Source of the DNA: a virus
IMG/VR virus record: IMGVR_UViG_3300041955_000887
Span: 1 to 29,716 of that record
Direction: 5' to 3' (one strand)
Length of the DNA: 29,716 bases
Shown here: one piece after another, positions 8,174 to 28,684 of the stretch
How positions within the stretch are numbered: position 1 is the stretch's first letter
Layout of the letters: every line of letters starts with the position of its first letter
Program-made: the position numbers and the translations under genes
Notes under the pieces: generated by a model
What the model was told of the DNA's origin: nothing
Seen by the model: only the letters and a program-made list of their open reading frames with translations
Databases searched by the model: none

Positions 8174-10474
8174 CTATCCTCTGGCCGCCGCGGTCGCGAG
8201 ATGGCGATGGGCGTCGGCGATGATCTGTCCCGACGACTGGCGGAAGCTGTTGGCGTCAGGCGTGCTGACGTTGATCGTCACCGAAGGGCCGGAAGCGCGG
8301 CCGCCGGCGGTCGCGGCGGCCGCGTCCGGGGTTCGCACCATCACCCGCTCGCCGGGCGTGGCGCGAAAGGCCACCAGCTGGCTATCGATTCCGCCGCCTC
8401 CGCCGACCGTGAAATCGCCGCCGGCGGCGAAGCCGGGGAGGTCGGGAAGGCTCGCGATCTCGGGCATCAGCTGCTGCGCGAAGTCGGTGATGTCCGACGG
8501 CGACGCGCCAGCCTCGGTCGCGCCCGCGAACAGGCCGCCGTACATGCTGCCGAGATTGGCGTAGTCACTCGCGTCGGTCTGCGCGCTGGAGCCGAACAAA
8601 TCTTTGACTCCGGAGACCGCCGCAGCGACCAGGTTGCCTGTGCCTCCGCCTGCGCCTCCGCCGGGGCCCGCGCTGCCGCCATTGAACAGGCCGCCGAACA
8701 TCTTGCTGCTGTCAGCGACCGGCAGCGCGCCCGCTTCGCCCGGCTTTTTGCCCATCAGTTCGTTCAGCAGCGGGTTGATCACCAGCAGCTTGAGGATCAT
8801 CTTCTCGATGTCATCGCTGAAGGCGAGCGCGCCCTGGCTGAGTTCCTGCCACGCGCTCTTGAGGTTGTGGCTCTTGGTGGTGGCGCCGACCAGCGCGTCG
8901 CCGGCCTTGCTCAATCCCTGCGCGAAGCTCTTGTCGAATTCGTTCTCGGCCTTCGCCCCCTCCTGGGCCTGCAGCTTGGCCTGCTCGTCTGCCGACGCCA
9001 GGTTGTAGATCGCCGTGAGCTGCTCCTGGCTGATGCTGATGCCAAGTTTGTTCGCCGCGTTTAGTTCCTGGGTCGCGGCGAGATCGCCGGCGTGCGCGAT
9101 CTGGAGCGCCTGCACCGCCTCGGCGCCCTGGCCGTATGCAACGCGCAGCCGCTCCTGGTACTCGATGTCCTCCTGATACTTGGTGAGCAGTTCTTCGTAG
9201 GGGCGCTGAAACGCGGTGAAATCGGCGTTTGCCTGCTTGGCCTGCTCGTCGGCCTCCGCGAGCCCGCGCGCGGCTTCGATCTTCGCCGGCGGCGCGGTAA
9301 TCCCGAGCCGCGTGGCGTCCTGACGGACCTTCTCTGCCGCGATCTCGCCCGCGTGCGCCACTTCGAGCGCGCGCACCGCCGCGGCGCTGTCGTTGTAAGC
9401 GGCCCGCAGCCGCGTCTGGTAATCGAGGTCGAGCCGATACTGCGCGATCAGCTTGTTGTACTCGGTCGCGAACTCCTGCGCCTTCCTGATCGCGTCGGCA
9501 TCGAGCAGCGGCGGCTTGGGAGCGCCGCCGGCTTCCCACGGCGCGGGCCCGGTTGGGGTGTGCGCCGACATGGCTGCCATTTCATTCGAGGCGCCAGAGG
9601 GCAGCGGCGCCCAGGGCGAGCTCAGGTTGCGAGGAACGGCGAGGTCCTGCAGCTTTTGCACCGAGCCAAGCTGGCCAGTCATGAAGGCCAGAGGCTTGAT
9701 TGCCTCGTTGTGCTCGAAGAGCGGAATTACCTTGAGCAGTCCCTCCGCCAGCTCGTTCTCGAGCAGCTTACCCATCAGCGAGAGCTCGGTGTTGGCCTTG
9801 TCCAGCGCCGCTATATCTTCGCGGCTCAGGATCAGGCCCATTTCCTTGAGGCTGGCGATCTCCTTGTCGATGCCGTCGGCCATCTGCTTGTCGACGGAGA
9901 TCATCCGTTCGCCGCCTTTGCCGAACAGCTCGCGCGCCTCGGCGGCGGCCTTATACTGGTCCGTCATCTCGCCGAGCCGTTTGCTTATGTCGCCGACGAA
10001 CTGCTCCGCAGTCATCCCCTGGCGCTCCGCGCTGGCCGCCTGCAGCGAGCCGAAGAGGTCCTTGAGCGCGGCGACCGTGCCCGGTGCGGGCAGGCCTTGT
10101 TCGAGCTTGCCGATCTGAGCGGTGAAAAATTCGAGCGAGCGGTTGATCGTGTCCTGGGCGACGCCGGCCTTGAGCCCGGCGACCTGGAACGCCTGCAGGC
10201 CTTCGACCGATAACCCCAGCTCGCGCGACATATTGGTGATCTGCGATCCCGTCTCGGTGATCGATTTGACGAACTCGGCGGCGCGCATGCCGGCTTCGGC
10301 GAACTGGACCGCCGCGAGACCCTTAACCCAGCTGGTCAGCTCCTCGATGCTGCTCTGGGTCTGCTTGCCGGTGCGGCCGAACTCGTCGAGGCTCCGGCGC
10401 GCCTGATCCATGCCAGAGCGGAAGCCGGCGACGTCGGCGCGCAGGTTGACGATCAGGTCTCCAACCGTTGCCAT
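8174..10474 (-). CDS. Tail tape measure protein, 766 aa
   Basis: The start is placed at the ATG at 10474, which overlaps the stop of the chaperone T frame as TGATG and opens with MATVGDLIVNLRADVAGFRS, a typical tape-measure N-terminus. An in-frame ATG further upstream only extends through the T gene. The protein is long, Ala/Gln/Glu-rich and mostly helical, with a hydrophobic stretch near KMILKLLVINPLLNEL and a Gly-rich C-terminal region (GGLFNGGSAGPGGGAGGGTG). It sets tail length by being stretched inside the tube. Residues about 339-425 and 426-512 are tandem homologous repeats of 87 residues sharing AY..., A...AL..AHAG and ADEQAK. It is the largest gene between tail chaperone and distal tail, as expected. 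Confidence 0.92.
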   Translation of the reverse strand: MATVGDLIVNLRADVAGFRSGMDQARRSLDEFGRTGKQTQSSIEELTSWVKGLAAVQFAEAGMRAAEFVKSITETGSQITNMSRELGLSVEGLQAFQVAGLKAGVAQDTINRSLEFFTAQIGKLEQGLPAPGTVAALKDLFGSLQAASAERQGMTAEQFVGDISKRLGEMTDQYKAAAEARELFGKGGERMISVDKQMADGIDKEIASLKEMGLILSREDIAALDKANTELSLMGKLLENELAEGLLKVIPLFEHNEAIKPLAFMTGQLGSVQKLQDLAVPRNLSSPWAPLPSGASNEMAAMSAHTPTGPAPWEAGGAPKPPLLDADAIRKAQEFATEYNKLIAQYRLDLDYQTRLRAAYNDSAAAVRALEVAHAGEIAAEKVRQDATRLGITAPPAKIEAARGLAEADEQAKQANADFTAFQRPYEELLTKYQEDIEYQERLRVAYGQGAEAVQALQIAHAGDLAATQELNAANKLGISISQEQLTAIYNLASADEQAKLQAQEGAKAENEFDKSFAQGLSKAGDALVGATTKSHNLKSAWQELSQGALAFSDDIEKMILKLLVINPLLNELMGKKPGEAGALPVADSSKMFGGLFNGGSAGPGGGAGGGTGNLVAAAVSGVKDLFGSSAQTDASDYANLGSMYGGLFAGATEAGASPSDITDFAQQLMPEIASLPDLPGFAAGGDFTVGGGGGIDSQLVAFRATPGERVMVRTPDAAAATAGGRASGPSVTINVSTPDANSFRQSSGQIIADAHRHLATAAARG
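8939..9460 (-). repeat. Tandem 87-codon duplication inside the tape measure gene
   Basis: Two consecutive units, 9460-9200 and 9199-8939, encode aligned segments beginning YNKLIAQYRLDLDYQTRLR and YEELLTKYQEDIEYQERLR. Both continue with AY, ALxxAHAGxxAA, LGI and ADEQAK at matching offsets. The period is 261 bases, from the first Tyr codon of each unit. The copies have diverged at the DNA level, so this is an old duplication. Confidence 0.8.
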
Positions 10475-11669: not shown

Positions 11670-12074
11670 TCAGCCGCTATTCCGCTCCTCGTGCATGACT
11701 AGGAAATCGGCCGCGACGTGAAAGGTCTTGGTGCGCGGCTCATACAGATCGTGATCGCCGAGTGCGATGACGCCGGCGACGCGGACGCCGCCGGCGTTGC
11801 CGATGAAGCCGTCGAGCGCGCTGATTACCGCCGCGATCGCGGCCCTGGCGGTCGCGGAATCGTTGGCCCACGCGTCGACCTGGATGCGCGGGCGCGCCAG
11901 GCCCGCCGGACCTTCGAGCACATGTTCGCGCGGCCCATCGACGCGGAAATAGCTGAGCGCGGGATACTGGCCCTCCTCGGGCGTGATCACCGGATAGATG
12001 CGCGTGCCCACGATGTCGGTCACGTCCGAATCGTTGGAGAGTAGGGCGAAGATCGCTTCTTCGGCGGAAGCCAT
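11670..12074 (-). CDS. Tail terminator / completion protein (DUF3168), 134 aa
   Basis: The N-terminus AEEAIFALLSNDSDVTDIVG followed by TRIYPVITPEEGQYPALSYF is the defining block of DUF3168, the tail-terminator family related to lambda gpU. A conserved central RIQVDAWANDSATARAAI follows. The end LYEPRTKTFHVAADFLVMHE matches the family's final strand. It forms a ring on the finished tail tube and contacts the head connector. The ATG overlaps the stop of the upstream 58-residue gene (TGATG), and it lies just upstream of the tube gene. Confidence 0.92.
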   Translation of the reverse strand: MASAEEAIFALLSNDSDVTDIVGTRIYPVITPEEGQYPALSYFRVDGPREHVLEGPAGLARPRIQVDAWANDSATARAAIAAVISALDGFIGNAGGVRVAGVIALGDHDLYEPRTKTFHVAADFLVMHEERNSG

Positions 12075-12250
12075 CAGCCCTCCGTGCTCCCGTCGAGATA
12101 GCGCGGCGGCCGCTCGGCGTCTGGCGTCGCGGCAGCGGCGAGCGCGTCGACACGCGCGCGCAGCCGGCCGATCTCAACGCCCAGGGCCACGCCGACCGCC
12201 GCGTTCACGACGAAGACCAGGAAGGTGAGCGCGAGGATGGCAGCGAGCAT
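12074..12250 (-). CDS. Small single-TM protein, 58 aa, between gp10-like and tail terminator
   Basis: An ORF too short for many gene callers, with TGATG overlaps at both ends: its ATG overlaps the gp10-like stop and its TGA overlaps the terminator start. That is the same coupling used throughout this operon and is strong evidence that it is translated. Residues 2-25 (LAAILALTFLVFVVNAAVG onward) form one transmembrane helix, followed by a short amphipathic segment (EIGRLRARVDALAAAA) and a Pro/Arg-rich end. Membrane proteins are unusual inside the head-tail joining cluster. Function unknown; I recognise no family. Confidence 0.75.
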   Translation of the reverse strand: MLAAILALTFLVFVVNAAVGVALGVEIGRLRARVDALAAAATPDAERPPRYLDGSTEG

Positions 12251-12744
12251 CACGGGCCCTCCCCGGCGGCATTGCTCTTGAGCGCATCGGCTTCGATGCG
12301 GCGATGCGCATAAGCGATGATCGCCGCGACCGCGGCCTCGCGCTTAGAATCGAACGCCGGCCGCATGAACGGATGCGCCGGAACGTTGCCGGCCACGCGG
12401 CCGCGCCGACGTCCGCGCAGGGCGCCCCCCTTGGCGATGCGATGACCGAATTCGACCAGGCGCCCGTACCAGGCTTCCTTGCTCAGATGGACCTTGGCGA
12501 CGAGCGTGCCGCGCGTGCCGCGGCCGCGGCTGGCGATGATCCCTTTGCGCAGTGTCGCGGCCGACTCGCCCTTGGGCAGCGGTGGATGGCCGAGAGGGGC
12601 GAGCCTACGGGCTTCGTCGCGAATCACTACGGCGCCGGCGTAGAGTGCGCCGCGCATCACATTGTTCGCCGCGCGATCGGGCATCGCGGCGAGCAGATCG
12701 GCGAGTTCCTTGCCGCCGGTGATGGTGAGCTCGCCGAACTCCAT
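12250..12744 (-). CDS. HK97 gp10-like head-tail protein, 164 aa
   Basis: The start at the ATG at 12744 overlaps the previous stop (TGATG); an upstream in-frame ATG only reads through the neighbour. The protein begins MEFGELTITGGKELADLLAA and contains VMRGALYAGAVVIRDEARRL with APLGHPPLP. This is the characteristic HK97 gp10 family pattern, a helix carrying R..A...G...I...A...AP. The later AWYGRLVEFGH and NVPAHPFMRPAFDSKREAAV are the other conserved blocks. It acts in joining head and tail. Length and neighbours (head-tail adaptor before, tail terminator after) are standard. Confidence 0.92.
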   Translation of the reverse strand: MEFGELTITGGKELADLLAAMPDRAANNVMRGALYAGAVVIRDEARRLAPLGHPPLPKGESAATLRKGIIASRGRGTRGTLVAKVHLSKEAWYGRLVEFGHRIAKGGALRGRRRGRVAGNVPAHPFMRPAFDSKREAAVAAIIAYAHRRIEADALKSNAAGEGP

Positions 12745-13139
12745 CACGGATTCCTGTCGATCGGCCGTTCGAGCGCGACGATCTCGATCTCGTGATGGCG
12801 CTCGTTGATGTCGTTGATCGCGAGAATGTCGAATTGGCGGCGGCTCGCGGCGCCGGCGCTGGGCCGGTTCCACAAAATGCGCATCTTGGGGTCGAGGTCT
12901 CGCCGCCAGCGGATAGTGATGCGGGTGTCGGCGTCGGGATAGACCTGCTGCCCGGCGAAAATCTCGCGGCCTCCGATCGGCATCACGTTGGCCCACACCG
13001 TGGCGAAATCGACCCAGCCCGATATCTGCGCGCCGGCGGCGTCCTGGCCGGTGACCACCGGAGTCTGGAATGTGATGCGATGGCGGAGCTGGCCGGCCTC
13101 GATCTCGTCGACGGGTTGGGTGGCGGGGTCAAAACTCAT
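12744..13139 (-). CDS. Phage head-tail joining/adaptor protein, 131 aa
   Basis: Contains the head-tail joining family signature: AGQLRHRITFQTPV, then GGREIFAGQQVYPDADTRIT and IRWRRDLDPKMRILW, ending FDILAINDINERHHEIEIVA. These blocks are very regular among stopper proteins of the SPP1 gp16 / HK97 adaptor group. The protein closes the connector after packaging and presents the tail-binding surface. The start overlaps the upstream connector stop by ATGA and the stop overlaps the next start by TGATG. Confidence 0.93.
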   Translation of the reverse strand: MSFDPATQPVDEIEAGQLRHRITFQTPVVTGQDAAGAQISGWVDFATVWANVMPIGGREIFAGQQVYPDADTRITIRWRRDLDPKMRILWNRPSAGAASRRQFDILAINDINERHHEIEIVALERPIDRNP

Positions 13140-16291: not shown

Positions 16292-17650
16292 CTATGAAGC
16301 GAGAGTCACCCGCGCGAACGCCTCCTCGAACACGGGCATGCCGTCGAGCTCCATGCGCATAATGAAGCCCTCCTGGTTCGATGCGGCGTAGAGCTCGACC
16401 AGGCGCTGCACGGTCATGTCGAGCGCGTCGGCGATCCAGTAGCGCGAGAAATCGCCCAGGATGCCGACGTACTGGCCCGCGGTGAAGGTGCTGGGCACGT
16501 ACTCCGACTCATAGACCGGGATGTTCAGGAGCATGTCGGGAGTTCCGGCTTGGAGGCCGGGCTGCCACATGTAGCGGCCCACGCCGTCTTTGAGCTTGGA
16601 GACCATCGAGATCCCGTCGCGGTGAAACAGCCACACCGCCGAGCGCCGATAGGGCGCTTTCAGCGCGTATTTGCAGTCCTGGATTCCGTCCGGAGCGATC
16701 TGCGTGGTGGTGTTGACGCTCACGACGTCGCGGTCGGTGGAGATGCCGTTGGCCGAGGCCACGAATACGCCCAGCGGCTCCTGCGATCCGGTGCCGAGCA
16801 GGAACGCCTGCTCTTGGGTGATGCCGAACTTGTAGGCGAAGCGGTCGGCGATCAGCGCCTCGAGGTCGATCACGCTGGCGCGGAGCAGCTTCTTGCTTAC
16901 CTTGATCTGCTTGGCCAGCGGATGGGGAGCGAAGGCGCGCTTGCCGAAGTCCATGGTGGTGTCGGTGGTGCCGGTCGCGAGTTCGGAGGTCCAATCGGCG
17001 TCTGCTGGGTTGTCCTCGAGGGTCGGCACGCCCAGGTCCTGGGCCTTGGTCACTACGACTTTGTTCGCGAGTCCGCGGATGTATACGTAGTCATCGATCT
17101 TGCGGATCAGCGTCGCCTGGAACTGCTCGGGCGGCACGGTAAAGCCGCCGGCGGGATCGGCGCCCATCAACAGGTCGCGGCGCTCGTCGCTGGTGAGTTC
17201 CTGCACGCCATAAGCCAGCTGCTTGAGCCAGGCGCGGTAGGAGGGCGCCGCGCGCAGGTCGCTCTCAAGCTGATCCATGCGCTTGCGCTCGGTTTCGTTC
17301 AGGGTCTGGAACTGGCGGCCGCGCGCGTTGAGTCCGGCGGGGCTGTAGCGGTCGCGCGACCATAGCCCGCGATATTCCGCGGTGCGTGCGCGCAGCTCTT
17401 CGGCGGTGGCGGGCGCGCTGGTTTCGGTGGTGGCTTGGCGTGCGGCGGCGGCGTTGTCGCGGTCGAGTTCGAGCTGCTCTTCAGCCCGCGTGATGCGCTC
17501 CTTGAGCGAGCCGGCGTCTGCGATCGCCTTGTCGTAATTGGTGCGCTCTTCGGCGGTGAGGTCGCGGTTTGCCTTTTCGGCGCTCTCGGAAATGTCACGA
17601 GCGGCCTTGACCAGCTTGCCGCGCTCTTCCCTAAGTTCCCTGAGTTCCAC
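16292..17650 (-). CDS. HK97-family major capsid protein, 452 aa, GTG start
   Basis: The start is placed at GTG 17650 (V-E-L-R-E-L-R-E-E-R), preceded by AAGGGGGAACCTC; longer in-frame starts read through the terminator-like hairpin and are unlikely. Residues 1-75 form a charged coiled coil, the delta/scaffold domain expected to be removed by the protease. The shell domain follows from about residue 145 (MGADPAGGFTVPPEQFQATL, then IRGLANKVVV and ISVSKK-type motif QIKVSKKLLRASVIDLEALI, FLLGTGSQEPLGVF). The C-terminal ISMVSKLKDGVGRYMWQPGL and YVGILGDFSRYWIADALDM are canonical HK97 strands. Order portal-protease-capsid is standard. Confidence 0.95.
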   Translation of the reverse strand: MELRELREERGKLVKAARDISESAEKANRDLTAEERTNYDKAIADAGSLKERITRAEEQLELDRDNAAAARQATTETSAPATAEELRARTAEYRGLWSRDRYSPAGLNARGRQFQTLNETERKRMDQLESDLRAAPSYRAWLKQLAYGVQELTSDERRDLLMGADPAGGFTVPPEQFQATLIRKIDDYVYIRGLANKVVVTKAQDLGVPTLEDNPADADWTSELATGTTDTTMDFGKRAFAPHPLAKQIKVSKKLLRASVIDLEALIADRFAYKFGITQEQAFLLGTGSQEPLGVFVASANGISTDRDVVSVNTTTQIAPDGIQDCKYALKAPYRRSAVWLFHRDGISMVSKLKDGVGRYMWQPGLQAGTPDMLLNIPVYESEYVPSTFTAGQYVGILGDFSRYWIADALDMTVQRLVELYAASNQEGFIMRMELDGMPVFEEAFARVTLAS

Positions 17651-17893
17651 GAGGTTCCCCCTTGGTGTTTGTCGGGCTGGGAACTCAGGCAAAACAAAAC
17701 GGGCGCGAAGCTCCCGGCCCGGATGATTCCGGGTCTGGCAGCTTGCGCGCCCGACGATCGCGTCTGGCGTGTGCCGCACCAGCGGCTTAGCTGGTCACCG
17801 ATCTCGGTCCGGAGGCCTCGCCGCTTCGGCCCGCCCTATCGGCGGACCCTGTAATCGATCGTAAGCGTGACGCGCGGCGCGGCACGAGTCAAA
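17651..17893. other. 243-bp non-coding gap upstream of the capsid gene
   Basis: No supported ORF. It contains the large hairpin at 17691-17753 and a short leader with the G-run ribosome site just before the capsid GTG. Most intergenic gaps here are under 60 bases, so this one probably carries regulation. No convincing -35/-10 pair was found between hairpin and start. Confidence 0.6.
17691..17753 (-). terminator. Large hairpin plus T-run upstream of the capsid gene (terminator or attenuator)
   Basis: On the minus strand CGGGCGCG (17753-17746) pairs with CGCGCCCG (17707-17700). The stem extends through AGCTT-type bases (one-base bulge), and an inner CCCGGA-ATCA-TCCGGG hairpin is present. TTTTGTTTT follows at 17699-17691. 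Only about 40 bases remain to the capsid start, so either transcription reads through or a processed capsid mRNA begins here. Confidence 0.7.
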
Positions 17894-18117: not shown

Positions 18118-19137
18118 TTACTCCAGCGCTTCGAGCTCGGCGCGGCGGCGCAGCGCCGCGGCCCTGGCGGCGCCCTCCGATCGCGGGATAACACCGTCAT
18201 CCATCAGCCGCCGGCGCCCTTCGGCCACCAGCTGGTCGAGCGCGCGCACGTTGACGTCGGTATCGGGATACGCCGGATAGGTGACCGCCGCGACGTCGCC
18301 GTCGTGCAAACTGACCTTTTTGAGCGTGCGCACCAGGGTGCCGTCCTTCTCTTCGTTCCAGTCGTCGTCGAGCACGCGGAATGCGAACGAACACTGCGAG
18401 ATATCGCCGCGCTCGATCGACGCCATCAGGTCGCGCGCGGCCTGGTTATCGGGCGGCTCGCAATCGAAGTGAAGGCCGGTGGAGTCGACCGCGAGCTTGA
18501 GGGTGCCGCTGGTGGTGCGGCCGAACACCTGGTTTGCGTCGTGATTGAAAGTGAATCTCACGTCGGGCGCGCTGGCCAGGGTCTGGTCGAAGGCGTGCGG
18601 ATCTATCTGCTCGCGGAACGCCATGAAACCGAAACCCAGCGGCAGCGAGCGCGTGCCGAATTTGGCCGCATAGCCAGCCATCATCGGCGGCTGCTGGATG
18701 CCCTCGTCGCCGCCGGCGGCGCGCTTGCGAATCACCTGAAGCGATCCGTCGAGCATGCGCCGCTCGAGGCCGCCGGCCGAGCTGCTCTTGAGCTCGGGTA
18801 CGTCCTTTTTGGCGTCCTTGAGATGGGCCGCCAGATGGGCGTGGACGCCTTTACGATCGGCCTCCGGGATGTTGGCGCCGCCGCGGCCGCCGTTGAGGAT
18901 CGCGATTCCGCTCGAGCACGCGCGCAGGTTGGCCGCGCCGACTTTGCCGTCGCTGTCGACTTCGTGGTGGATGAACTTGAAGTCGCTCTTCTTGGTGCCG
19001 TCGCCATCGGGGTCCTCCCAGGCGAAGGCCGAGCGGTAATAAGCCTGCGTGCCGTCGTTTTTTAGATGCGCCTTGGCGGCCGGGCCGTCCCAGGCAGTAT
19101 CGACCGTGTCGGTATGATGGACACCGATTGCTCCCAT
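18118..19137 (-). CDS. HK97-family prohead protease with N-terminal accessory domain, 339 aa
   Basis: Residues 1-115 form a separate domain (HHTDTVDTAWDGPAAKAHL, KFIHHEVDSDGKVGAANLRA, ILNGGRGGANIPEADRKGVH) that is often fused to or encoded beside phage prohead proteases. Its function is not known to me. Residues 130-300 are the serine protease domain. The catalytic His is in RFTFNHDANQVFGRT (His199) and the Ser in DISQCSFAFRV (Ser250), with the conserved VAAVTYPAYPDTDVNVRAL end. It matures the capsid by removing the delta domain. It is preceded by AAAAGGGGGGAACA and follows the portal gene. Confidence 0.93.
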   Translation of the reverse strand: MGAIGVHHTDTVDTAWDGPAAKAHLKNDGTQAYYRSAFAWEDPDGDGTKKSDFKFIHHEVDSDGKVGAANLRACSSGIAILNGGRGGANIPEADRKGVHAHLAAHLKDAKKDVPELKSSSAGGLERRMLDGSLQVIRKRAAGGDEGIQQPPMMAGYAAKFGTRSLPLGFGFMAFREQIDPHAFDQTLASAPDVRFTFNHDANQVFGRTTSGTLKLAVDSTGLHFDCEPPDNQAARDLMASIERGDISQCSFAFRVLDDDWNEEKDGTLVRTLKKVSLHDGDVAAVTYPAYPDTDVNVRALDQLVAEGRRRLMDDGVIPRSEGAARAAALRRRAELEALE

Positions 19138-19164: not shown

Positions 19165-20799
19165 TCACTGCGATCCTGCTCTCTCGCGCTTGCGCGCGAG
19201 CGCGTCTTCGGTCTCTTCCCGGAAAGGCAGCGCGGCCCGCACGATCGCGGCCACGCGGGTCGTTTCCCAGCTCGCGAGCAGCGCCTCGAAGTCGGCCGCG
19301 TTCGCCCGCGCGAACACTGGGATCAGCGATTGGCGCGACGCGCGGATATGCTCCTCGTCGGCCTCGAAATCGGCGTAGAACTTCTCGATCTCGCGCATCA
19401 GCTCGCGCGCGTCAGAGTTGGGCCTATGCTTCTTGGCCAGCCGGCGCAGCGCGGTCACTTCCTTGCGCACCAGGCGCTCGGCATTTTGGGTGAGGAGCGC
19501 GCGCAGTGTCTTGAGCATCATCGCGCGATCCTCCTCGTCCTCGGGGTCGGCGTCAGGTTTGGCTGGCGGCGTGGGTGGCGGCTGCGGCGCGTTCAACTGG
19601 GTTCCGGTGATGTTGGCCGCGATATGATATTCGTCGCCGCCCGGGCGAGGGTTCCGGTTTTCCATCTCGCGGACCTCGTTCGGGCAGAACACGCCGCGAT
19701 CGAGCGCCGCCGAGTAGGCGGCCCAGCGGCTGGCCATGTCGCCGCGCAACAGCGCGTCGACCAGGAATTCGGCGAAGTAGATCGGCCGCGATTTCGCGCT
19801 CAACAGGTCGCGCGAGATCGCACCCTCCCAGCGCCGCAGATGCGGCATCAGGCAGTAGATCACGAACTCGAGCGACTGCTGCTCGATATTGGAGAAGGTC
19901 GCGCGATCGAGGTCCGCCAGCATGTGTAACGGCACGCCGAACATCCGCGCGATCTCGCTGACCTGGAACTTGCGCAGCGCGAGAAATTCGGCGTCGCGGT
20001 TGGTGATGCCGATTTTCTCAATGCCTAGGCCTTCTTCGAGCAGGGCGATCTTGTGCGCGTTGGGCAGGCCGGCGTTAGCCTCCTGAAAACTCTGTTTCAG
20101 CCGCTTCGCGGCCTCGGCGCTGAGGGTCTTGGCATGGGTCAGCACGATCGCCGGAGTGGCATCGTTAGAAAAAAAGCGCGCCTCGAATTCCTCGGCCGCC
20201 ATGCCCAGCCCGACCGCCTCGCGCATCAGCGCGATCGGCGACAGGCCGGTGATGCCGTCGCTCGAAAACCCGCGCAGATGGAACATCTCTTCGGCGGCGA
20301 TCAGCCTGCGTGGACCGATGATCGGGCTGAATTCGTACCAGATCGATCCATCGTCGCGTTTGAAGGCGCGGACGCGATCGGGATTGAGTGGAACCAGCTG
20401 CGCGACCGACCCGTCGTTGCGGTAGAAGATCTCGCTGTAGGCGTTTCCGCGCAGCAGCAGATGACCAGTCATCATCTCGCGCCACTCGAATGAGGTCTGC
20501 CAGCGGTTGGGAACATCGTGCAGAGTCGAGAACAGCGGGGCATCGACCGCGCGCTGCTTGCCGCCGCCGTCGAGGCGGCGATAGAGCACCAGCGGCAGCA
20601 TCGCGACTCCCTGCGCAATGATCACGACCGCACGATAGACCGGGGCCGTGCGCAGCGCGCTCTCGGGCGTCACCCAGGTGCCAGTCGCGGTCTGGGTGCC
20701 GCGGCCCATCAGCTGCACCAGCCACGGATCGCCGTTGGAGAGCGATGTGCGCTGTTCTGCGGGCGGACGCGCCCGCGTCATCACCGAGAGCAGGCCCAT
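19165..20799 (-). CDS. HK97-family portal protein with C-terminal extension, 544 aa
   Basis: The portal domain spans about residues 30-415: VYRAVVIIAQGVAMLPLVLY, then TGHLLLRGNAYSEI, VPLNPDRVRAF, GFSSDGITGLSPIALMREAV, FGVPLHMLADLDRATFSN and IEQQSLEFVIYCLMPHLRRW. All are hallmark blocks of HK97 portals. After a Pro-rich linker (PQPPPTPPAKPDADPEDEED) comes a helical extension to residue 544, longer than the core family. Such extensions occur in related phages. It forms the dodecameric ring through which DNA is packaged. The ATG directly follows the stop of the 53-residue gene. Confidence 0.95.
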   Translation of the reverse strand: MGLLSVMTRARPPAEQRTSLSNGDPWLVQLMGRGTQTATGTWVTPESALRTAPVYRAVVIIAQGVAMLPLVLYRRLDGGGKQRAVDAPLFSTLHDVPNRWQTSFEWREMMTGHLLLRGNAYSEIFYRNDGSVAQLVPLNPDRVRAFKRDDGSIWYEFSPIIGPRRLIAAEEMFHLRGFSSDGITGLSPIALMREAVGLGMAAEEFEARFFSNDATPAIVLTHAKTLSAEAAKRLKQSFQEANAGLPNAHKIALLEEGLGIEKIGITNRDAEFLALRKFQVSEIARMFGVPLHMLADLDRATFSNIEQQSLEFVIYCLMPHLRRWEGAISRDLLSAKSRPIYFAEFLVDALLRGDMASRWAAYSAALDRGVFCPNEVREMENRNPRPGGDEYHIAANITGTQLNAPQPPPTPPAKPDADPEDEEDRAMMLKTLRALLTQNAERLVRKEVTALRRLAKKHRPNSDARELMREIEKFYADFEADEEHIRASRQSLIPVFARANAADFEALLASWETTRVAAIVRAALPFREETEDALARKRERAGSQ

Positions 20800-20961
20800 T
20801 TAACTTCGCAGCTCCGCGATCAGGCCGAGCGCAAAGAAAGCCGCTCCGGGAATCATGTAGCCGAGCGGATGCCAGGCCAGGTGGGCGCCGTAGGACAGCA
20901 CGGCGAGGCCTCCGAATAGGCTCGCGGAGCCGAGGACCTCCGCCAAGATTCGTTTCATCAT
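20800..20961 (-). CDS. Small two-TM protein, 53 aa, upstream of portal
   Basis: Starts at ATG 20961, where AAAAAGGGGATCGGG gives a ribosome site; a second ATG follows immediately. It overlaps the stop of the 58-residue gene and ends with TAA directly abutting the portal ATG. The sequence MMKRILAEVLGSASLFGGLA continues to a second hydrophobic segment (MIPGAAFFALGLIAEL), so two membrane helices are likely. Not recognised as a family. Tight coupling on both sides supports translation. Confidence 0.72.
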   Translation of the reverse strand: MMKRILAEVLGSASLFGGLAVLSYGAHLAWHPLGYMIPGAAFFALGLIAELRS

Positions 20962-21134
20962 CCCGATCCCCTTTTTGGCAACGAGTCGAAATAGTCGACG
21001 CGGAAGCCGGCCTTAAGCGCTAACGCCTTGAGCCGGTCGTCGGTCGCGGCATGAGCGGCGCCGTCGCCGATCACCAGCGACAGCGCAGGCTTTCCCAGCA
21101 CGGCGCCGGCGAGCGGCACGCGAACAATCAGCAT
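20958..21134 (-). CDS. Small protein, 58 aa, unknown
   Basis: Begins at ATG 21134, overlapping the end of the Fis-HTH gene by 7 bases, and ends in the ATGATGA overlap with the next gene. The product (MLIVRVPLAGAVLGKPALSL, then VIGDGAAHAATDDRLKALAL and AGFRVDYFDSLP) looks like a small alpha/beta fold. No family recognised. Coupling to both neighbours is the main evidence. Confidence 0.65.
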   Translation of the reverse strand: MLIVRVPLAGAVLGKPALSLVIGDGAAHAATDDRLKALALKAGFRVDYFDSLPKRGSG

Positions 21135-21463
21135 CGGCGCGCCTGCTGCAGCAGCCGATAAAGCGTCGACCTGGAGATCCCGAGTAGCTTCGCCGCCGCT
21201 CTCTTGTTCCCGCCCGTCACGACCATCGCGTCACGGATGGCTCGGAGAATGGCTCGGAGCTTCGCGGTGGCGATTCCCATGCTGGGTGAGGCCGCCAGGA
21301 CCGCGGCGACGTCCTCGATGGCGCGGAGTTTCAGTGGAGTTGGTGCGACGACGGATGGTGCGGTGGGCGGCGCGGCCGGTTGCGTCATGTTGGTGCGTCG
21401 CGCGCGCGAATTCGGGTCGGGCTCAGGCGGCATCTCCTGGCCACGGTAAGTGCGGAAGATCAT
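21128..21463 (-). CDS. Fis-type helix-turn-helix protein, 111 aa
   Basis: Start chosen at ATG 21463 (MIFRTYRGQEMPPEPDP), which overlaps the previous stop by ATGA; ATG 21388 is an alternative. Residues about 1-45 are Pro/Ala-rich and probably disordered. Residues about 70-108 are a classic Fis HTH: IRDAMVVTGGNKRAAAKLLG then ISRSTLYRLLQQA. TGGN..AAA.LGISR.TLY is the DNA-binding signature of Fis and of NtrC-type activator C-termini. No AAA+ domain is present. It probably binds DNA to regulate late genes, or assists packaging as a DNA-bending protein (inference). Its place between Ku and portal is unusual. Confidence 0.82.
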   Translation of the reverse strand: MIFRTYRGQEMPPEPDPNSRARRTNMTQPAAPPTAPSVVAPTPLKLRAIEDVAAVLAASPSMGIATAKLRAILRAIRDAMVVTGGNKRAAAKLLGISRSTLYRLLQQARRC

Positions 21464-21669
21464 CGCGGCAGCTCGACCAGGGGCAAGCCGTTGCCGCGGC
21501 CGGACTCGGTGAGTCGGCGCGAGGTTTCGACGACGATCCAACGGAAGCAGGTCGCGCAGACCTGGTGGCGTTCGATCGAGCGAGGTTTAGTCGAGCGCTT
21601 GCCGCAGCGTTCGCAGACGTTGCGGTCCACGGGCTGCGGGGCTTGGCTATTGAGCGGGCGGATCAACAA
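21460..21669 (-). CDS. Zinc-ribbon-like protein, 69 aa, TTG start
   Basis: The only reasonable start is TTG at 21669, with GGAGGA about 12 bases upstream; a GTG 13 codons later is the alternative. Two CxxC pairs (NVCERCGKRS and HQVCATCFRW) about 18 residues apart suggest a zinc ribbon. The stop overlaps the start of the Fis-HTH gene (ATGA), so the two are probably co-translated and may act together. It is the first gene after a non-coding gap that has a promoter-like sequence. Confidence 0.68.
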   Translation of the reverse strand: MLIRPLNSQAPQPVDRNVCERCGKRSTKPRSIERHQVCATCFRWIVVETSRRLTESGRGNGLPLVELPR

Positions 21670-21906
21670 GGCCCGGCGCGATCCTCCGACCCTGCCTCAC
21701 CGGCCATGCAAATATGCAAAAACGGCGAGGGCTCAGGAACAGCGGGCCGCCGAGCTTTGGCTCAGGCGAGATCACCCATTATGCGCGCGAGACGAAGACT
21801 CGCTGGGACATCGGTTCCAGCGCGAAGGCGCGCGGACGGCTCCCGTCGGGGAGCAATCAGCTTTAAGTTGTATGGCTGCGGTTGGGAACGAGTCAAAAAG
21901 CGCAGC
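21670..21906. other. 237-bp non-coding gap between Ku and the zinc-ribbon gene
   Basis: No supported ORF on either strand. It contains the promoter-like pair at 21867-21896, a small GACGG-GAGC-CGTC hairpin near 21836-21850, and GGAGGA near 21682-21687 that probably serves the TTG start. Just after the Ku stop the minus strand reads GCTGCGCTTTTTG with only a weak stem, so a terminator there is doubtful. Confidence 0.55.
21867..21896 (-). promoter_or_regulatory. Candidate sigma70-type promoter for the zinc-ribbon/Fis-HTH/portal operon
   Basis: On the minus strand TTGACT (21896-21891) and TACAAC (21872-21867) are separated by 18 bases, with the AT-richer ACTTAAAGC just after. It lies in the 237-bp gap after the Ku gene and points toward the portal. 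This is a sequence match only. Confidence 0.4.
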
Positions 21907-22788
21907 TTACATATAGCGCGCCGGCCCGCGAGCGCCGCCAGGGGCTGAGGCTTTGGTCGTTTGGTCGCCGTTGCGGCGCGCCTTGATGCCGCCCGGGCGG
22001 CCGATTCCTAACGAGGCCCGCAACCGCTCGTTCAGATCCAGCACGGCGGCCGGCGCCTGCACCGGCGCAGCCTTGCCTGGCGACGCGGCCTGACCGGCTT
22101 TGCGCTGCTCGACGAATTCCAGGAGCCGCGCGCGCTGCTCGTCGGCGGTCTCGGCAAAAAGGTCGCGACCGTCATCCATCGTGTCGACCAGCTGCGTGGC
22201 CAGCGCCAGGGTAGTGCGCACGACGGGGCGCGGCTCGGGGCCCGGCGCGTCGATCGCGTCGCGGACCTCGCCGGCATAGTAGAGCATCGCCAGCGTAAAC
22301 CGCTGGATTATGGGATTGGTGAGCAGGACGGCGAACCGCCGGCGCCCATACAGCACGAGGCGCACCAGACCGATTTTCTTGCGCTTGGTCACCGCCGCAA
22401 ACATGGTTCGGTAGGCATCGCGCGAGGCCTTCGAATCGACGCCGACGTAGTAGGTGCTGCCATCCAACCGGATCGGCTCCATTAGCGCTGCTGGCCGAAG
22501 GGTCACCACCTCGAAGACGCCGTCTGCCTCGGGTTCCATCGCGTCGAGCTCGGCGCTCGTAAAGACCGTGGTCTCTTCGCCGTTCGGGAGGCCATGCGCG
22601 CAGTCGACCTTGCGATCGAGCACGCGCTGGCATTGCGCGCACCACAGCTGCTGGCTTACCTGCGCGAGACACTCGGCATGGATGAGCTTGAAGCTCAGCC
22701 GCTCCTCTTTGGCGGCCAGATAGAGCTTGACCGGGACGGCGACCTCCCGGAACTTCAGGGTTCCGACTGCTACGGCGCGAAGACTCAT
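21907..22788 (-). CDS. ku: Phage-encoded Ku DNA end-binding protein, 293 aa
   Basis: Strong resemblance to bacterial Ku across the core. The N-terminus has VGTLKFREVAVPVKLYLAAK and LSFKLIHAEC. A Cys cluster (Cys40, CAQC at 50-53, Cys63) lies in the usual zinc-ribbon position. FTSAELDAMEPEADGVFEVV, STYYVGVDSKASRDAY, KIGLVRLVLYGRRRFAVLL and LAMLYYAGEVRD match the ring-forming beta-barrel and bridge. About 110 residues of C-terminal tail, basic at the end, may recruit a ligase. Ku rings thread onto DNA ends in non-homologous end joining. No ligase gene is in the window, so it would rely on a host LigD-like ligase, as proposed for mycobacteriophage Ku. It starts 3 bases after an unknown gene downstream of the terminase. 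Confidence 0.9.
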   Translation of the reverse strand: MSLRAVAVGTLKFREVAVPVKLYLAAKEERLSFKLIHAECLAQVSQQLWCAQCQRVLDRKVDCAHGLPNGEETTVFTSAELDAMEPEADGVFEVVTLRPAALMEPIRLDGSTYYVGVDSKASRDAYRTMFAAVTKRKKIGLVRLVLYGRRRFAVLLTNPIIQRFTLAMLYYAGEVRDAIDAPGPEPRPVVRTTLALATQLVDTMDDGRDLFAETADEQRARLLEFVEQRKAGQAASPGKAAPVQAPAAVLDLNERLRASLGIGRPGGIKARRNGDQTTKASAPGGARGPARYM

Positions 22789-22791
22789 GGC

Positions 22792-23316
22792 TCATTTCCT
22801 CCCATCGACCGACGAAAGCATTTCGCGGGCCGTCTGCCTGGCGTAGGACTCCGACAACTCGGCCAGCCGATCCGCGAGTCGCTTGGCTCCGCCGGCGGCG
22901 GCCGATTGGAGGTCGGCCTCGAGCGCGGCGAGCAGCTGGCGTCCCTGCCCGAGCGGCAGCGGTGCCAGCTCGAATCCGAACTGCAGCAGCGTTTTGCGAT
23001 AGAGGGCGAGCAGCGGATCGAACAGCCGATCGCAGAACTTGCTATGGCTTTCGGCACTGCTCCGGAGCGCGGCCATCACCGCCGCGGGTTCGGCGACCGC
23101 GGCGAGCCTGGCCAGCGGGCGTAGGACCGCGCGGGCCGCCCGGTCAGCGGCGAGCTCGAACACCTCGGTAAAGTGGTCGCGCGACTCGCGCGCCACCGCG
23201 GCCTCGCCCGCGCGCCTGAGCGCGCAGTGCGCGGCCAGCCCGCACGACAAAGGTTCTTGCGGCGCGCTGCGCGAGATCGAGCTATGCCGCAGGGCCTGCA
23301 GCATGCGCATTAGCAT
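22792..23316 (-). CDS. Unknown helical protein between large terminase and Ku, 174 aa
   Basis: The start is placed at ATG 23316, which overlaps the terminase stop as TGATG; ATGs at the 3rd and 5th codons are alternatives. The protein is Ala/Leu/Arg-rich and almost entirely helical (HFTEVFELAADRAARAVLRP, AALRSSAESHSKFCDRLFDP, LLALYRKTLLQFGFELAPLP), ending in AKRLADRLAELSESYARQTA. No catalytic motif, signal or TM segment is seen, and I do not recognise the family. It ends 3 bases before Ku with a shared AGGAAATGAGCC ribosome site, so it is likely made together with Ku and may act on the same DNA ends or on packaging (inference). Confidence 0.8.
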   Translation of the reverse strand: MLMRMLQALRHSSISRSAPQEPLSCGLAAHCALRRAGEAAVARESRDHFTEVFELAADRAARAVLRPLARLAAVAEPAAVMAALRSSAESHSKFCDRLFDPLLALYRKTLLQFGFELAPLPLGQGRQLLAALEADLQSAAAGGAKRLADRLAELSESYARQTAREMLSSVDGRK

Positions 23317-25022
23317 CACAGCACCGTCAGTCCGCGCGTTTCGTAGACGCTCGCACCGCTTCCCATGCCAACCATAGCCCGCGAGAGTGCGATAATCACC
23401 GCCACCACGCCATCGACGCGCTCGCTCGAGGCCTTCTTGTCGGGCTTGATATTGCCGTTCGAATCGGTGTGGACCGCGATGTTCGACGCGTTCCATCGCA
23501 GCACCGGATTGCCGCCGTGGCGCAGCTCCCGCTTCAGTACCTGCGAGCTCAGCAGTTTCATAGGCTCGCTCAGGGTCTGCGTTCCCTGCCTGACTTCGAC
23601 CATCGTGAAGCCGTCCTGCTCGCCGAGCTCGGTGGCGATCTGCGTGGCGTTCCACGGATCGAAGCCGATTTCCTGAATCGAATACTGGCCGGCGAGCTCG
23701 CGCAGGCGCTTACGGATGTAGCTATAGTCGGTGACCTCGCCCGGCGTGGCCTCGATCAGGCCGTCTCTGATCCAGTTGAGGTAGGGCACGCGATCGCGCT
23801 GGGCGCGCTCGCGGGCGCCGTCCTCTGGCACCCAATACCAGAGCAGCACGTCCCAGCGGGCTGGGGCCGGTTCCTGTTTTTCGACCTCAGATGAGGGCGC
23901 AAAAGAGGAACAAGCTCCCGCGCTAACCTGTTCCTCGTCGGGAACATCCTCGCTAGGGATCGAGTTGCCAGGATCATCCCCGGCCGGTAGATCCTTTGGC
24001 GGGAACACCAGGGCGAGCGCGGTCAAGTCGGTCCTCGAGGCCAGGTCGAGGCCGGCCCAGCAGGGTCGGCCGCGCAGCTCCTCGAGCGGAATCGGGTCGG
24101 CGCACTGGTCCCATCGGTCCATGGGCAGCCAGCGCGTGACCTGCTCGGTCCAGAGGTTCAAATACAAGCGCTTGAAATTGTTTTCCGCGGCCGCGTTGGA
24201 GATCGCGAACTGGCACCGCTCGCGCAGGAAATCGGGTTTGACGCTGACTCCATAATTGGGATTGGCCGCGGCCCAGGTTTCCTCGCGCTTCCAGTATTCC
24301 GGATCTTTGCGATCTTCGGCCTCGTCGGCCGCGTAGATCACCACCAGCAGATTCGGATTCTCGATGATGCCGTCCCTCACCTTGAGCGCGTGGTCGTGCA
24401 GCTCCCAGCAGATCGAGTGTCGGTCGACGCCGGCGGTGGTGGCGGCAACGATTAGCGGCTGGCGTCGCGCGCCGCTGCCGCTGGTGAGCACATCCCACAG
24501 CTCGCGATTTGGCTGGGTGTGGACCTCGTCGAACAGGATGCCGTGCGGATTGAAACCGTGCTTGGTCTCGGGAGCGCTGGACACGGTCTGGTAGAAGGAG
24601 CCGCTCGCCGCCACCACGATCGAGCGCTTATACACCTGGGACCGCCGGCTGAGGGAGTCCGATTGCTGCACCATAGCCTTGGCGCAGCCGTGGATGATCC
24701 CGGCCTGAGGCTCGTCCGCGGCCGCGGAATAGATCTCGGCGGCGGGCTCGTTGTCGCAGAACAGTAGGTAGAGCCCGATCCCGGCGACCAGGGTCGACTT
24801 GCCGTTCTTGCGCGGCACCTCGATCCATACAATCCGGTAGCGGCGGGTGCCGTCCGGGCGTTTCCACCCGAACAGCGGACGCACGATCTCGTCGCGCTGC
24901 CACGGCTCGAGCACGAAGTGCTCGCCGGCCCATTCGCCCACCGCGTGGCGAAGAATGGTCGAGAAGAACTGCTCCGCGCGGTCGGCGGCGGCCTCGTCGA
25001 AGATGAAGTCGCTTGTCGCCAT
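23316..25022 (-). CDS. terL: Terminase large subunit (ATPase-nuclease), 568 aa
   Basis: Full domain set of a Terminase_1 family packaging motor. The Walker A-like VPRKNGKST is at residues 69-77 and the Walker B ILFDEVH at 162-168. The coupling motif AATTAG is near 194-198. The RNase H-like nuclease has acidic residues in AGLDLASRTD (Asp326), IGFDPWNAT (Asp455) and ERVDGVV (Asp537). It cuts concatemers and pumps DNA through the portal. A Pro/Glu/Ser-rich low-complexity insertion at about 343-388 separates the first nuclease strand from the next; it is not part of the family core. The ATG has no strong ribosome site. Its stop overlaps the next gene. Confidence 0.96.
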   Translation of the reverse strand: MATSDFIFDEAAADRAEQFFSTILRHAVGEWAGEHFVLEPWQRDEIVRPLFGWKRPDGTRRYRIVWIEVPRKNGKSTLVAGIGLYLLFCDNEPAAEIYSAAADEPQAGIIHGCAKAMVQQSDSLSRRSQVYKRSIVVAASGSFYQTVSSAPETKHGFNPHGILFDEVHTQPNRELWDVLTSGSGARRQPLIVAATTAGVDRHSICWELHDHALKVRDGIIENPNLLVVIYAADEAEDRKDPEYWKREETWAAANPNYGVSVKPDFLRERCQFAISNAAAENNFKRLYLNLWTEQVTRWLPMDRWDQCADPIPLEELRGRPCWAGLDLASRTDLTALALVFPPKDLPAGDDPGNSIPSEDVPDEEQVSAGACSSFAPSSEVEKQEPAPARWDVLLWYWVPEDGARERAQRDRVPYLNWIRDGLIEATPGEVTDYSYIRKRLRELAGQYSIQEIGFDPWNATQIATELGEQDGFTMVEVRQGTQTLSEPMKLLSSQVLKRELRHGGNPVLRWNASNIAVHTDSNGNIKPDKKASSERVDGVVAVIIALSRAMVGMGSGASVYETRGLTVL

Positions 25023-25228
25023 GTCAATTACGAGGCGACAGTCGGACTCGACAATGCTTGCTCATGCGCCGAACTGGAAGCTGGGCTGCCCGACTCTACT
25101 GGCGGTAGACTTTCGAGGATCGATCCTCGTGTAGGGCGCCTTAAGAAATTCGACAAGGCGCTGGAGAAGGTGGTGCGATCGGCAAAATGAAATCATCTGC
25201 GCAATAGAGCGTCGATCCCGGTCAGCAT
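25023..25228. other. 206-bp gap between small and large terminase genes
   Basis: The two terminase genes usually overlap or nearly touch. Here the gap contains a perfect 16-bp palindrome (25114-25129). The best minus-strand frame is a 44-residue ORF from an ATG with no ribosome site and no recognisable content, so I treat it as non-coding. It is a candidate for a packaging initiation (cos/pac) or regulatory site. Confidence 0.55.
25114..25129. repeat. Perfect 16-bp palindrome CGAGGATCGATCCTCG
   Basis: The sequence equals its own reverse complement over 16 bases and lies in the middle of the terS-terL gap. There is no T-run beside it, so it is a poor terminator. It could be a binding site for a dimeric protein or for the terminase. 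Confidence 0.85.
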
Positions 25229-25741
25229 TCACCCCTTTATACGCAAGAAAAATGCCTCTTCGGGGTCGTTGCTGGCCGCCGGCGCTCCCTGGATACGCGA
25301 TCGCGAGCTCGGCGACATCCCGAATTCGGTGGCGATCTTGACCATCCGATCGAACGCGTGGTCGACCAAAGTCGCGTAGGGCGATTTGACCGGCCCCCTG
25401 TCGGAGCGGCCCGCTTTGACCAGAAGTCCGTGCTTCTGCAGCCCGCGGCTGGCGACGACCCAGCGCGCGTAAGCGTCGCAATACAGCGCCAGCAGCGCCC
25501 CGTCGATGTCGGTGAGCAGGCCGAGCTTCGACAGCTGGCGACTCACGCGGTGGTACTCGCGAGTCGCCTCAAGCGCGAGCTGCTGGCCCTCCTGTGCGAG
25601 TTCGCGGCCGCGCTTGCTGAAATGCCTCGGGGGCCGCGGCACTGTGGCCGCCGGCTTGGCCTCGGCCTGGTTAACCGGCCGCTTGCCGCGATTTCCTTCG
25701 ATGACCCGCAGCCGGGTCGGCTTGGGCCTGCGCCCTTTCAT
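25229..25741 (-). CDS. terS: Terminase small subunit, P27 family, 170 aa
   Basis: The opening MKGRRPKPTRLRVIEGNRGK matches the P27-type small terminase signature (KPT.L...GN.GKR). The middle, SRQLSKLGLLTDIDGALLAL followed by YCDAYARWVVASRGL, is the conserved helical core. The C-terminal block KIATEFGMSPSSRSRI is the usual family end. It recognises the packaging site and loads the large subunit. AAAAGGGGGGGGACAAGG precedes the ATG. Position just upstream of terL, though with an unusual gap, fits. Confidence 0.94.
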   Translation of the reverse strand: MKGRRPKPTRLRVIEGNRGKRPVNQAEAKPAATVPRPPRHFSKRGRELAQEGQQLALEATREYHRVSRQLSKLGLLTDIDGALLALYCDAYARWVVASRGLQKHGLLVKAGRSDRGPVKSPYATLVDHAFDRMVKIATEFGMSPSSRSRIQGAPAASNDPEEAFFLRIKG

Positions 25742-25771
25742 CCTTGTCCCCCCCCTTTTGTTGTAAGGGAC

Positions 25772-26548
25772 TTACAGGACAGACTCCAACGCCTGCTGTT
25801 GCTCCCTCTTCTCCCCCCGCTCCCCTTGGTCCTCGGCAGACGCTAAATACCGAACAGAAAGGGCTGAATCCCCGCGACACGGTGAACACATCGCAGCACG
25901 CGGCGCGGCAGACGTTGAATAAACTCCAAAAGGGGGGCTGAACGATTGTGAAAGGACGCTCCATATCAGCGTGACCGCCAAAAGCATACCCGCCACCGCT
26001 ACACAAAATTGAGCCAGAATCATTTGATCAGCCTTGCGATTGGCAATCCGATGGTTGTCTTGGAGCACCTGATGCATCGCGCCGATATAGAACCGCTTGA
26101 GCGGGTCCGGTCCAGCTACAATCTGCTCTTGCGGTAGCCAAGTAGCCTCACTTAGTGCGCTCCAATTTTGCGCGCCCCGGAGTGCCAATCCGGCGCATAC
26201 GCATGCCGCGCCCGCGAAAATGCCCGCGACCGCTATTGCGATTGACTCCACACAGAAGTGCATCCCGCTTGGGCCACGTATCAGTAAAAACGCCAATATC
26301 GCGCTACTATAGCCAACGAGAGTGGTGGCTTTGGAATCTATCAGCGCAACACGATCATCGTTTGTTGCGAGCAAGACTCTTCCAAACTCAAACAATTCGT
26401 TTGTCACTTCCTCCGAAGAATACTTTTGGAGTAAGTCATCAACATCCGCGCCACGCATCTCTATAGTCTTGGTCGAACCTAAAATCAGTTGTCGTATTAG
26501 TTGCTTGATTTTAGCCAAACGCTCCACCGTTAAAGCCCCCACCCCCAA
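25772..26548 (-). CDS. Membrane effector-like protein B (PycTM/SLATT-like), about 251-258 aa
   Basis: The longest frame starts at TTG 26548; GTG 26527, 2 bases after the upstream stop and behind GGGGGC, is at least as likely. The core has VTNELFEFGRVLL, then ALIDSKATTLVGYSSAILAF (Asp71, Lys73 then TM1), TM2 at about 101-123, a cytosolic segment with LKRFYIGAMHQ and NRKADQMI, and TM3 (VAVAGMLLAVTLIW). The DxKA-plus-TM-pair plan resembles Pycsar and SLATT-type membrane effectors that depolarise membranes in anti-phage systems. It is paralogous to the upstream protein. The C-terminal tail is Ser/Cys/Glu-rich. No nucleotide cyclase or sensor is adjacent, so the role is open: defence, superinfection exclusion or lysis. 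Confidence 0.75.
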   Translation of the reverse strand: MGVGALTVERLAKIKQLIRQLILGSTKTIEMRGADVDDLLQKYSSEEVTNELFEFGRVLLATNDDRVALIDSKATTLVGYSSAILAFLLIRGPSGMHFCVESIAIAVAGIFAGAACVCAGLALRGAQNWSALSEATWLPQEQIVAGPDPLKRFYIGAMHQVLQDNHRIANRKADQMILAQFCVAVAGMLLAVTLIWSVLSQSFSPPFGVYSTSAAPRAAMCSPCRGDSALSVRYLASAEDQGERGEKREQQQALESVL

Positions 26549-27138
26549 AGGAAATTAAGAAGGGCGGATAGTTCCTTACCCATACCCAAGCGCCAAGTCT
26601 CAACAAGAAGTGGCAGCGCTAACAGGGTTGCTCCCACAACTACGAAGCGTTCTGTCCGAACAAGACTTTCTGCCTTTTGTTTGTTTTTGGTGCGATATGA
26701 CACGACGAGCCGGTACATCCCGATAAGGTAATAACGTCGCAATTGGTCGGGATATTGAAAGTACTCGTTGGCAAACCAAAGGTTTTTTTCATCGAGTCCT
26801 TGGACAGTTTGAATTCGTACCGCCATTATTGCGGACCATGCTGCAACAAGCAGGATGATGAGTCCAAAAAATAGACAGACCGATCCGAGCGGCCAATCGT
26901 TAACCAAATCTTTCCAACTCGAAAAAGTCGATATGACCACAACGATCATCGCTCCGGCAATACTGGCAAACGCGCCGGCTTTCGTGTCAAGCCAATTAAA
27001 CGAGTCAAGCGCATCGCGCACCAAGTCCTTCCCGAAATCATAGAGTTCTATGGTGACTTCAGGATCTTCATATTCTGTCAGTCGTTGGATGATCTCGTTC
27101 TCACCCGGCACGATTTCGTTCGCTTCGGATCGATCCAC
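26530..27138 (-). CDS. Membrane effector-like protein A (PycTM/SLATT-like), 202 aa, GTG start
   Basis: GTG start at 27138 with AAGGGGGAATTT directly upstream. VTIELYDFGKDLVRDALDS and NWLDTKAGAFASIAGAMIVV (Asp51, Lys53 then TM1) align with protein B, as do LRRYYLIGMYRLVV and NKQKAESLVR before TM3 (about 165-182). TM2 is at about 84-106. The two proteins are thus diverged paralogues encoded in tandem. The DNA is clearly AT-richer than the phage genes on both sides, which suggests recent acquisition. Structurally it looks like the 2-plus-1 TM effectors of Pycsar/CBASS-type immunity. This is resemblance of layout and DxKA motif, not a proven family assignment. Confidence 0.77.
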   Translation of the reverse strand: MDRSEANEIVPGENEIIQRLTEYEDPEVTIELYDFGKDLVRDALDSFNWLDTKAGAFASIAGAMIVVVISTFSSWKDLVNDWPLGSVCLFFGLIILLVAAWSAIMAVRIQTVQGLDEKNLWFANEYFQYPDQLRRYYLIGMYRLVVSYRTKNKQKAESLVRTERFVVVGATLLALPLLVETWRLGMGKELSALLNFLWGWGL

Positions 27139-28330: not shown

Positions 28331-28684
28331 CTAAGCGCCTCCCATCGTCTTGCGGCTGTGGCAGGGCTTGCACAGTCCCTGAAGATTCGAATCGGAATCG
28401 CTGCCGCCGGCGCGCCTGGGCACGATGTGGTCAACCTCTGCGGTCGGAACTAAAGGGCCGGTCTCGTCGATGTACCATTGCGCCGAACAGCTGCGGCAGA
28501 ACGGGTCGCGTACGAGGATGAGCGATCGCAGCTCACGCCAGCGGCTGCCATAGCCGCGCTCGGCGGAATTGCCGCGCCGAGCGTCGACCGACTCAGATCG
28601 CTGGTGCGCCGGGCAATACGCGCCCCGGCCCACCAGCTCGCGACATCCTTGCGCCGCGCAACCGTGTGGCGCTCTAAGCGGCAC
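28331..28684 (-). CDS. HNH endonuclease, 117 aa, GTG start
   Basis: Contains two parts. The N-terminal zinc-binding CAAQGCRELVGRGAYCPAHQ is followed by RELRSLILVRDPFCRSCSAQ. The HNH core has VDHIVPRRAGGSDSDSN and LQGLCKPCHSRKT, holding the catalytic His and metal-binding CxxC/CxxCH. In HK97-type phages such an enzyme, encoded just upstream of terS, is needed with the terminase for packaging. Here about 2.6 kb of other genes intervene. The start is GTG with GAGGCCA upstream, overlapping the previous gene by 11 bases. Confidence 0.93.
   Translation of the reverse strand: MPLRAPHGCAAQGCRELVGRGAYCPAHQRSESVDARRGNSAERGYGSRWRELRSLILVRDPFCRSCSAQWYIDETGPLVPTAEVDHIVPRRAGGSDSDSNLQGLCKPCHSRKTMGGA

Follow-up and report, generated by a model that had tools for sequence, protein, structure and literature searches.

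The packaging operon of an uncultured tailed phage encodes a protein which, on the combined evidence of sequence profiles and a predicted fold, can be settled as a true prokaryotic Ku (Table 1). Ku proteins of phages have been known before; the novelty here lies in a ku gene that adjoins the terminase genes, an arrangement which hints that the protein may act at the termini of the phage DNA. The version of this role that we favor, at a probability of roughly 0.45, is that the phage Ku binds these termini and assists LigD, an ATP-dependent ligase supplied by the host, in joining the cos ends into a circle. The stretch of DNA analyzed, hereafter the window, is an IMG/VR record of 29,716 bases, classed as linear and representing a fragment of the phage genome; no end repeats were detected in it.

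Table 1. Genes of the packaging and head region in the window, in order of transcription
Feature	Positions	Strand	Assignment	Basis or remark
HNH	28331..28684	(-)	HNH endonuclease, gp74-like by family and position	type stimulating cos cleavage in HK97
TerS	25229..25741	(-)	P27-type small terminase subunit (Terminase_4)	Pfam/PHROG family match
TerL	23316..25022	(-)	HK97-type large terminase subunit, ATPase and nuclease domains	
X	22792..23316	(-)	174 aa, predicted all-helical at low confidence	no family match
ku	21907..22788	(-)	divergent prokaryotic Ku, 293 aa, ATG start	Pfam, PHROG, NCBIfam, PDB, Foldseek
HTH	21128..21463	(-)	Fis-type HTH protein	in the ku-portal gap
portal	19165..20799	(-)	portal protein	
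protease	18118..19137	(-)	prohead protease, S78	
MCP	16292..17779	(-)	major capsid protein	

Identity, fold and divergence of the window Ku

The protein is recognized by the Pfam profile of the Ku beta-barrel domain family (PF02735; 2.4e-20, scoring 73.6 bits where the cut-off is 25), by the PHROG family 'Ku-like DNA end binding' (phrog_4873; 1e-28) and, in sequence searches, by Ku chains of the PDB (3.5e-18). The NCBIfam model Ku_bact (TIGR02772) is matched over its full length (positions 1-259 of 259; 4.4e-39) with 134.5 bits, which is below the equivalog cut-off of 150, and the protein is hence placed in the Ku domain family rather than proven equivalent to the Ku of non-homologous end joining (NHEJ). 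An AlphaFold2 model, built from an alignment of 20 Ku proteins from viral contigs, reached a mean pLDDT of 79.7 and a pTM of 0.69. Its best Foldseek match is the DNA-bound Ku core of B. subtilis (3.7e-17), ahead of DNA-bound M. tuberculosis Ku (7e-17), both at probability 1.00, and then of human Ku70/80. TM-scores against the bacterial chains are 0.50-0.56 when normalized to the length of the query and 0.54-0.71 when normalized to that of the target. Only two viral proteins of BFVD were recovered at E 0.001: one is the Ku encoded by mycobacteriophage Dylan, the other is labeled 'Ku-homolog' and comes from an uncultured Caudovirales phage. We also considered Gam of phage Mu, an end-binding phage protein for which end protection has been proposed (PMC1378119), as an alternative identity and rejected it: no Gam occurs among the 50 best PDB fold matches listed, the Pfam, PHROG and NCBIfam searches return Ku only, and the packaging module of the window is of the HK97 type, not the Mu type. 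The identification as Ku in an earlier note on this DNA, which had called for a profile search and for a structural comparison with bacterial Ku and Mu Gam, is thus borne out on both counts.

The window protein shares its fold, its length, a C-terminal helix and a basic tail (approximately 30 residues long and probably disordered) with the bacterial Ku proteins typified by those of B. subtilis and M. tuberculosis and by TIGR02772. The helix contains the sequence DLNERLRASL and retains a DLxxxLxxSL pattern; in B. subtilis Ku, the inner C-terminal region is reported to recruit LigD (PMC12658125). Residues H37, C50 and C53 align, with identical spacing, with His35, Cys48 and Cys51 of M. tuberculosis Ku, which are proposed to bind metal across the dimer bridge (PMC12658125), and this shared constellation is probably the Cys cluster that the earlier note had described as readable alongside the core Ku motifs. 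The latter part of that description fared less well, in that KGYE...YV, a motif shared by 90% or more of the aligned relatives, has become AHGL...TT in the window protein, and the model is weak at residues 65-68, the site of the alteration. KGYE is also absent from several true Ku proteins, such as those of mycobacteriophages at L046 and L052. Of the adjacent M. tuberculosis residues L13 and V14, which when mutated together break filaments and lower survival (PMC12658125), the former is replaced by Glu15 and the latter is kept as V16. The loss of KGYE, the sub-equivalog score and the lack of an adjoining ligD set the window Ku apart from its bacterial counterparts.

The nearest Ku proteins, that of viral contig L154 and Burkholderiales plasmid Ku, are approximately 30-33% identical to the window Ku, and about 33% is the maximum identity to any Ku found; the viral contigs and genome contigs searched contained no close relatives. 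In a maximum-likelihood tree the protein lies on a branch of approximately 1.5 substitutions per site, no sister to it has support, and an altered function is possible given this long branch. Kinship with one particular group of phage Ku proteins through a shared CxxC was considered but is not supported by the tree, in view of the long branch and low support.

The packaging operon and the companion gene

On the minus strand, the gene order runs from the HNH endonuclease through a phrog_9210 gene, two membrane-protein genes, TerS, TerL and the gene we call X to ku, and thence through small ORFs to the portal protein, the S78 protease, the major capsid protein, the tape measure protein and the tail genes. 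This corresponds to the HK97-type cos layout, with HNH, TerS, TerL and portal in one operon. The HNH protein of HK97, gp74, acts to promote cleavage at cos (PMC9410871), and the association of an HNH gene with TerS and TerL in the window suggests cos packaging. The TerL of the window has an acidic, Pro/Ser-rich insert of approximately 46 residues between the ATPase and nuclease domains, which is absent from L002-L004. The two neighboring genes for membrane proteins that lie between HNH and TerS (25772-26548(-) and 26530-27138(-); GC 0.53 and 0.48) are weakly matched by the Pycsar effector PycTM (0.0095 and 1.2e-5, respectively); this pair is AT-richer than the operon, unlike ku. At the contig end (29634-29710(-)) there is a tRNA-like sequence with a CAT anticodon loop, for which ARAGORN makes no call and the Rfam tRNA-Sec match is sub-threshold (22.8 bits against 47).

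The coupling of ku to the terminase operon claimed in the earlier note is real: the start codon of X shares one base with the stop codon of TerL (TGATG), three bases separate the X stop from the ku ATG, and a GGAGG stands 5' of that ATG. No promoter-like or same-strand terminator-like sites were found in 20700-25800, a weak test in a GC-rich phage. The GC3 values of ku (0.82) and X (0.84) equal those of the TerL, portal and major capsid protein genes (0.83-0.84), which suggests that ku is a settled resident; a recent acquisition from a host, which we also considered, is not supported, as its composition equals that of the operon. The placement of ku between terL and portal likewise stands as to position, with the qualification that a gap of approximately 1.1 kb with small ORFs, one of them encoding the HTH protein, lies between ku and portal.

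X agrees with its earlier description as a companion without known function. It has no relatives in the viral contigs, Pfam, PHROGs (searched with a longer frame), PADLOC or the PDB, and its model, with a mean pLDDT of 54.7, is too weak for a fold search. A search with PF01068 detected no ATP-dependent ligase on the 29.7-kb fragment, in keeping with the earlier observation that ku is unaccompanied by a ligase; since the record is a fragment, such a gene may lie elsewhere in the phage genome. As the terL-X-ku arrangement was met once, the case for functional coupling is one of gene order.

Ku in other phages and at related terminase loci

A tblastn search with three Ku queries recovered Ku in at most 81 of 50,697 phage records, of which 80 are Mycobacterium phages and the remaining one is a faecal contig without annotation; the Ku of Streptomyces phage BillNye (PMC11936186) was not matched by these queries. 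On the whole, annotated phage Ku appears almost confined to mycobacteriophage clusters J (Omega) and O (Corndog). These are likewise phage-encoded, single-domain versions, reported to aid in circularizing genomes with 4-base 3' ends (PMC4351075), and their phages have the HNH-TerS-TerL-portal-protease-capsid module in common with the window phage. Homology of the packaging genes to those of the window is clear for the portal and protease of Pound (cluster J), and weak for the TerL of Pound and for the HNH and portal of Firecracker (cluster O). In the cluster J stretches read, no ATP ligase lies beside ku. The window Ku is 26-29% identical to the cluster J proteins, and tblastn with it gave no match to the cluster O versions. 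The cluster J Ku has an Lsr2-like C-terminus (PMC3706429); none was identified in the window Ku. The principal difference lies in gene location: ku is far from the terminase genes both in Pound (approximately 98.8 kb, against 0.9-5.7 kb) and in Firecracker (approximately 55 kb, against 13-15 kb for TerL), whereas in the window it follows TerL inside the late operon.

Approximately 20 further IMG/VR viral contigs with Ku, some of which may be host DNA or host flank, were recovered with a DNA pattern for VKGYE...YV, which by its nature cannot detect versions lacking the motif, such as that of the window. Profile-led scans yielded one contig, and an alignment of nine Ku proteins was too diverse for patterns to be derived. 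That one contig (L053) encodes its Ku at 3755-4582, together with a Mu-type portal, and has a serine recombinase gene 0.7 kb downstream. Four viral contigs (L142, L145, L161 and L166), some of which may be host flank, each contain two adjacent, different ku genes. An ATP-dependent ligase was matched in 5 of the 22 further viral Ku contigs, adjacent or close to ku in four of these, and was not found in the other 17, as expected if the ligase is borrowed. Eight Ku-bearing viral records have a TerL matching phrog_9, one of them weakly. Four phage contigs (L155, L164, L140 and L146), three of them with a phrog_9-type TerL, encode Ku proteins with H..CxxC at the bridge that are 26-28% identical to the window Ku and keep the KGYE which the latter has lost. 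Transcription of their ku genes leads away from the packaging genes, and small HTH genes lie nearby where the surroundings were read; in L155 and L164 ku is divergent from HNH/TerS/TerL, at distances of approximately 1.5 kb to TerS and 1.2 kb to HNH.

Among 42 viral contigs and 80 bacterial loci with a related TerL (the latter with flanks of 10 kb, many loci being short), none has Ku near this gene, and the terL-X-ku-portal order remains a single occurrence. Of 28 genomes with a related TerL, only 10 contain Ku at all. Most relatives have only a small gap between terL and portal, with 2-5 kb of unrelated cargo in a few (L006, L008, L080, L104 and L112). In L104, from a Bacteroides MAG, an opposite-strand ORF between terL and portal (11817-12908(-)) shows leucine-rich repeats and a TIR-like region by eye, and in L002, a TerL relative, an ORF that is integrase-like by eye (8565-9707) lies shortly downstream of terL.

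Possible roles at the genome ends

We infer that a homodimer of the phage Ku would thread onto the linear phage DNA at its ends, hold or protect them, and recruit the host ATP-dependent ligase, so that short cohesive ends generated by the HNH nuclease and TerL might be joined to give a circular genome. Because translation of ku accompanies that of TerL and precedes that of portal, its product is probably made late, and the terminase-cut ends, already suggested in the earlier note, are a plausible site of action; the protein could act on the packaging-cut ends themselves or ride in the virion and act at the next infection. The closest precedent is Corndog, which has 4-base 3' ends and an HNH gene beside the terminase, and appears to recircularize by end joining, likely aided by its Ku (PMC4351075). 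NHEJ is also reported to be required for circularization of some mycobacteriophages (PMC3898472). As the window phage shares Ku and the HNH/terminase set with Corndog, the likeliest of the roles considered is circularization through short cohesive ends, sealed by a ligase of the host. In its favor we count the retained bridge residues, the DLxxxLxxSL helix, the coupling to TerL, the settled GC3, and the two contigs L155 and L164 with ku within 1-1.5 kb of HNH/TerS/TerL. Against it we count the single occurrence of the arrangement, the loss of KGYE...YV, the replacement of L13 by Glu15, the long branch and the late timing.

Several of these adverse features would sit more comfortably with a late protection of the phage genome ends against RecBCD, in the manner of Mu Gam, for which no ligase would be needed. 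Ku and Gam are both end-binding, Gam blocks the loading of RecBCD (PMC1378119, PMC12407980), and no ligase was found on the contig; the KGYE loss and the change in the synapsis loop would be less of a handicap to a protein that caps ends than to one that joins them, and late expression would suit the guarding of terminase-cut ends before or during packaging. We nevertheless regard this as somewhat unlikely, given that the fold is that of Ku, with the listed PDB matches devoid of Gam, and that the retained helix lies in the region tied to ligase recruitment by cellular Ku. A more radical departure, in which the Ku fold is re-used purely for packaging, as an end clamp or as a terminase regulator acting with X and without NHEJ, would account for the long branch, the lost motif and the operon shared with TerL and X; with neither a homologue of X nor a second case found, we consider it very improbable.

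The gene could also be a passenger (moron) in a terL-portal cargo slot, serving the lysogen or host, for example in DNA repair, with no part in packaging or circularization. The unrelated cargo in the same slot of a few relatives (the gap being small in most), the absence of Ku from all other related TerL loci examined, and its frequency on plasmids and scattered distribution over unrelated viral contigs point in this direction. Morons usually carry their own promoter. None was seen for ku, which is tightly coupled in translation to TerL via X and has the codon composition of the operon, and this makes a passenger role unlikely.

If circularization is indeed the role, the position of ku in a late operon means that action at the entry stage is to be expected only of a protein that travels in the virion. 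Such carriage was suggested for the Ku of Omega, although mass spectrometry did not detect Ku in the particles (PMC3706429). A specific elaboration would be an end-capping module of Ku and X that is coupled to the terminase: Ku, produced along with TerL, would load onto the HNH- and TerL-cut ends and, carried in the virion, circularize the genome at the next infection, with X serving as its loader or virion-targeting partner; we hold this to be decidedly doubtful. If true, it would answer the open suggestion of a capsid-packaged phage Ku (PMC3706429).

The approximately 20 added viral Ku contigs, even as some may include host DNA, suggest that phage Ku is more widespread than the annotated record indicates. 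In the genomes checked, the annotated mycobacteriophage ku genes are far from the packaging genes. Here ku is translated with the terminase, so that gene order itself ties the binding of ends to their cutting and points to late synthesis, and a ku gene in the late operon makes the idea of a virion-carried Ku testable.
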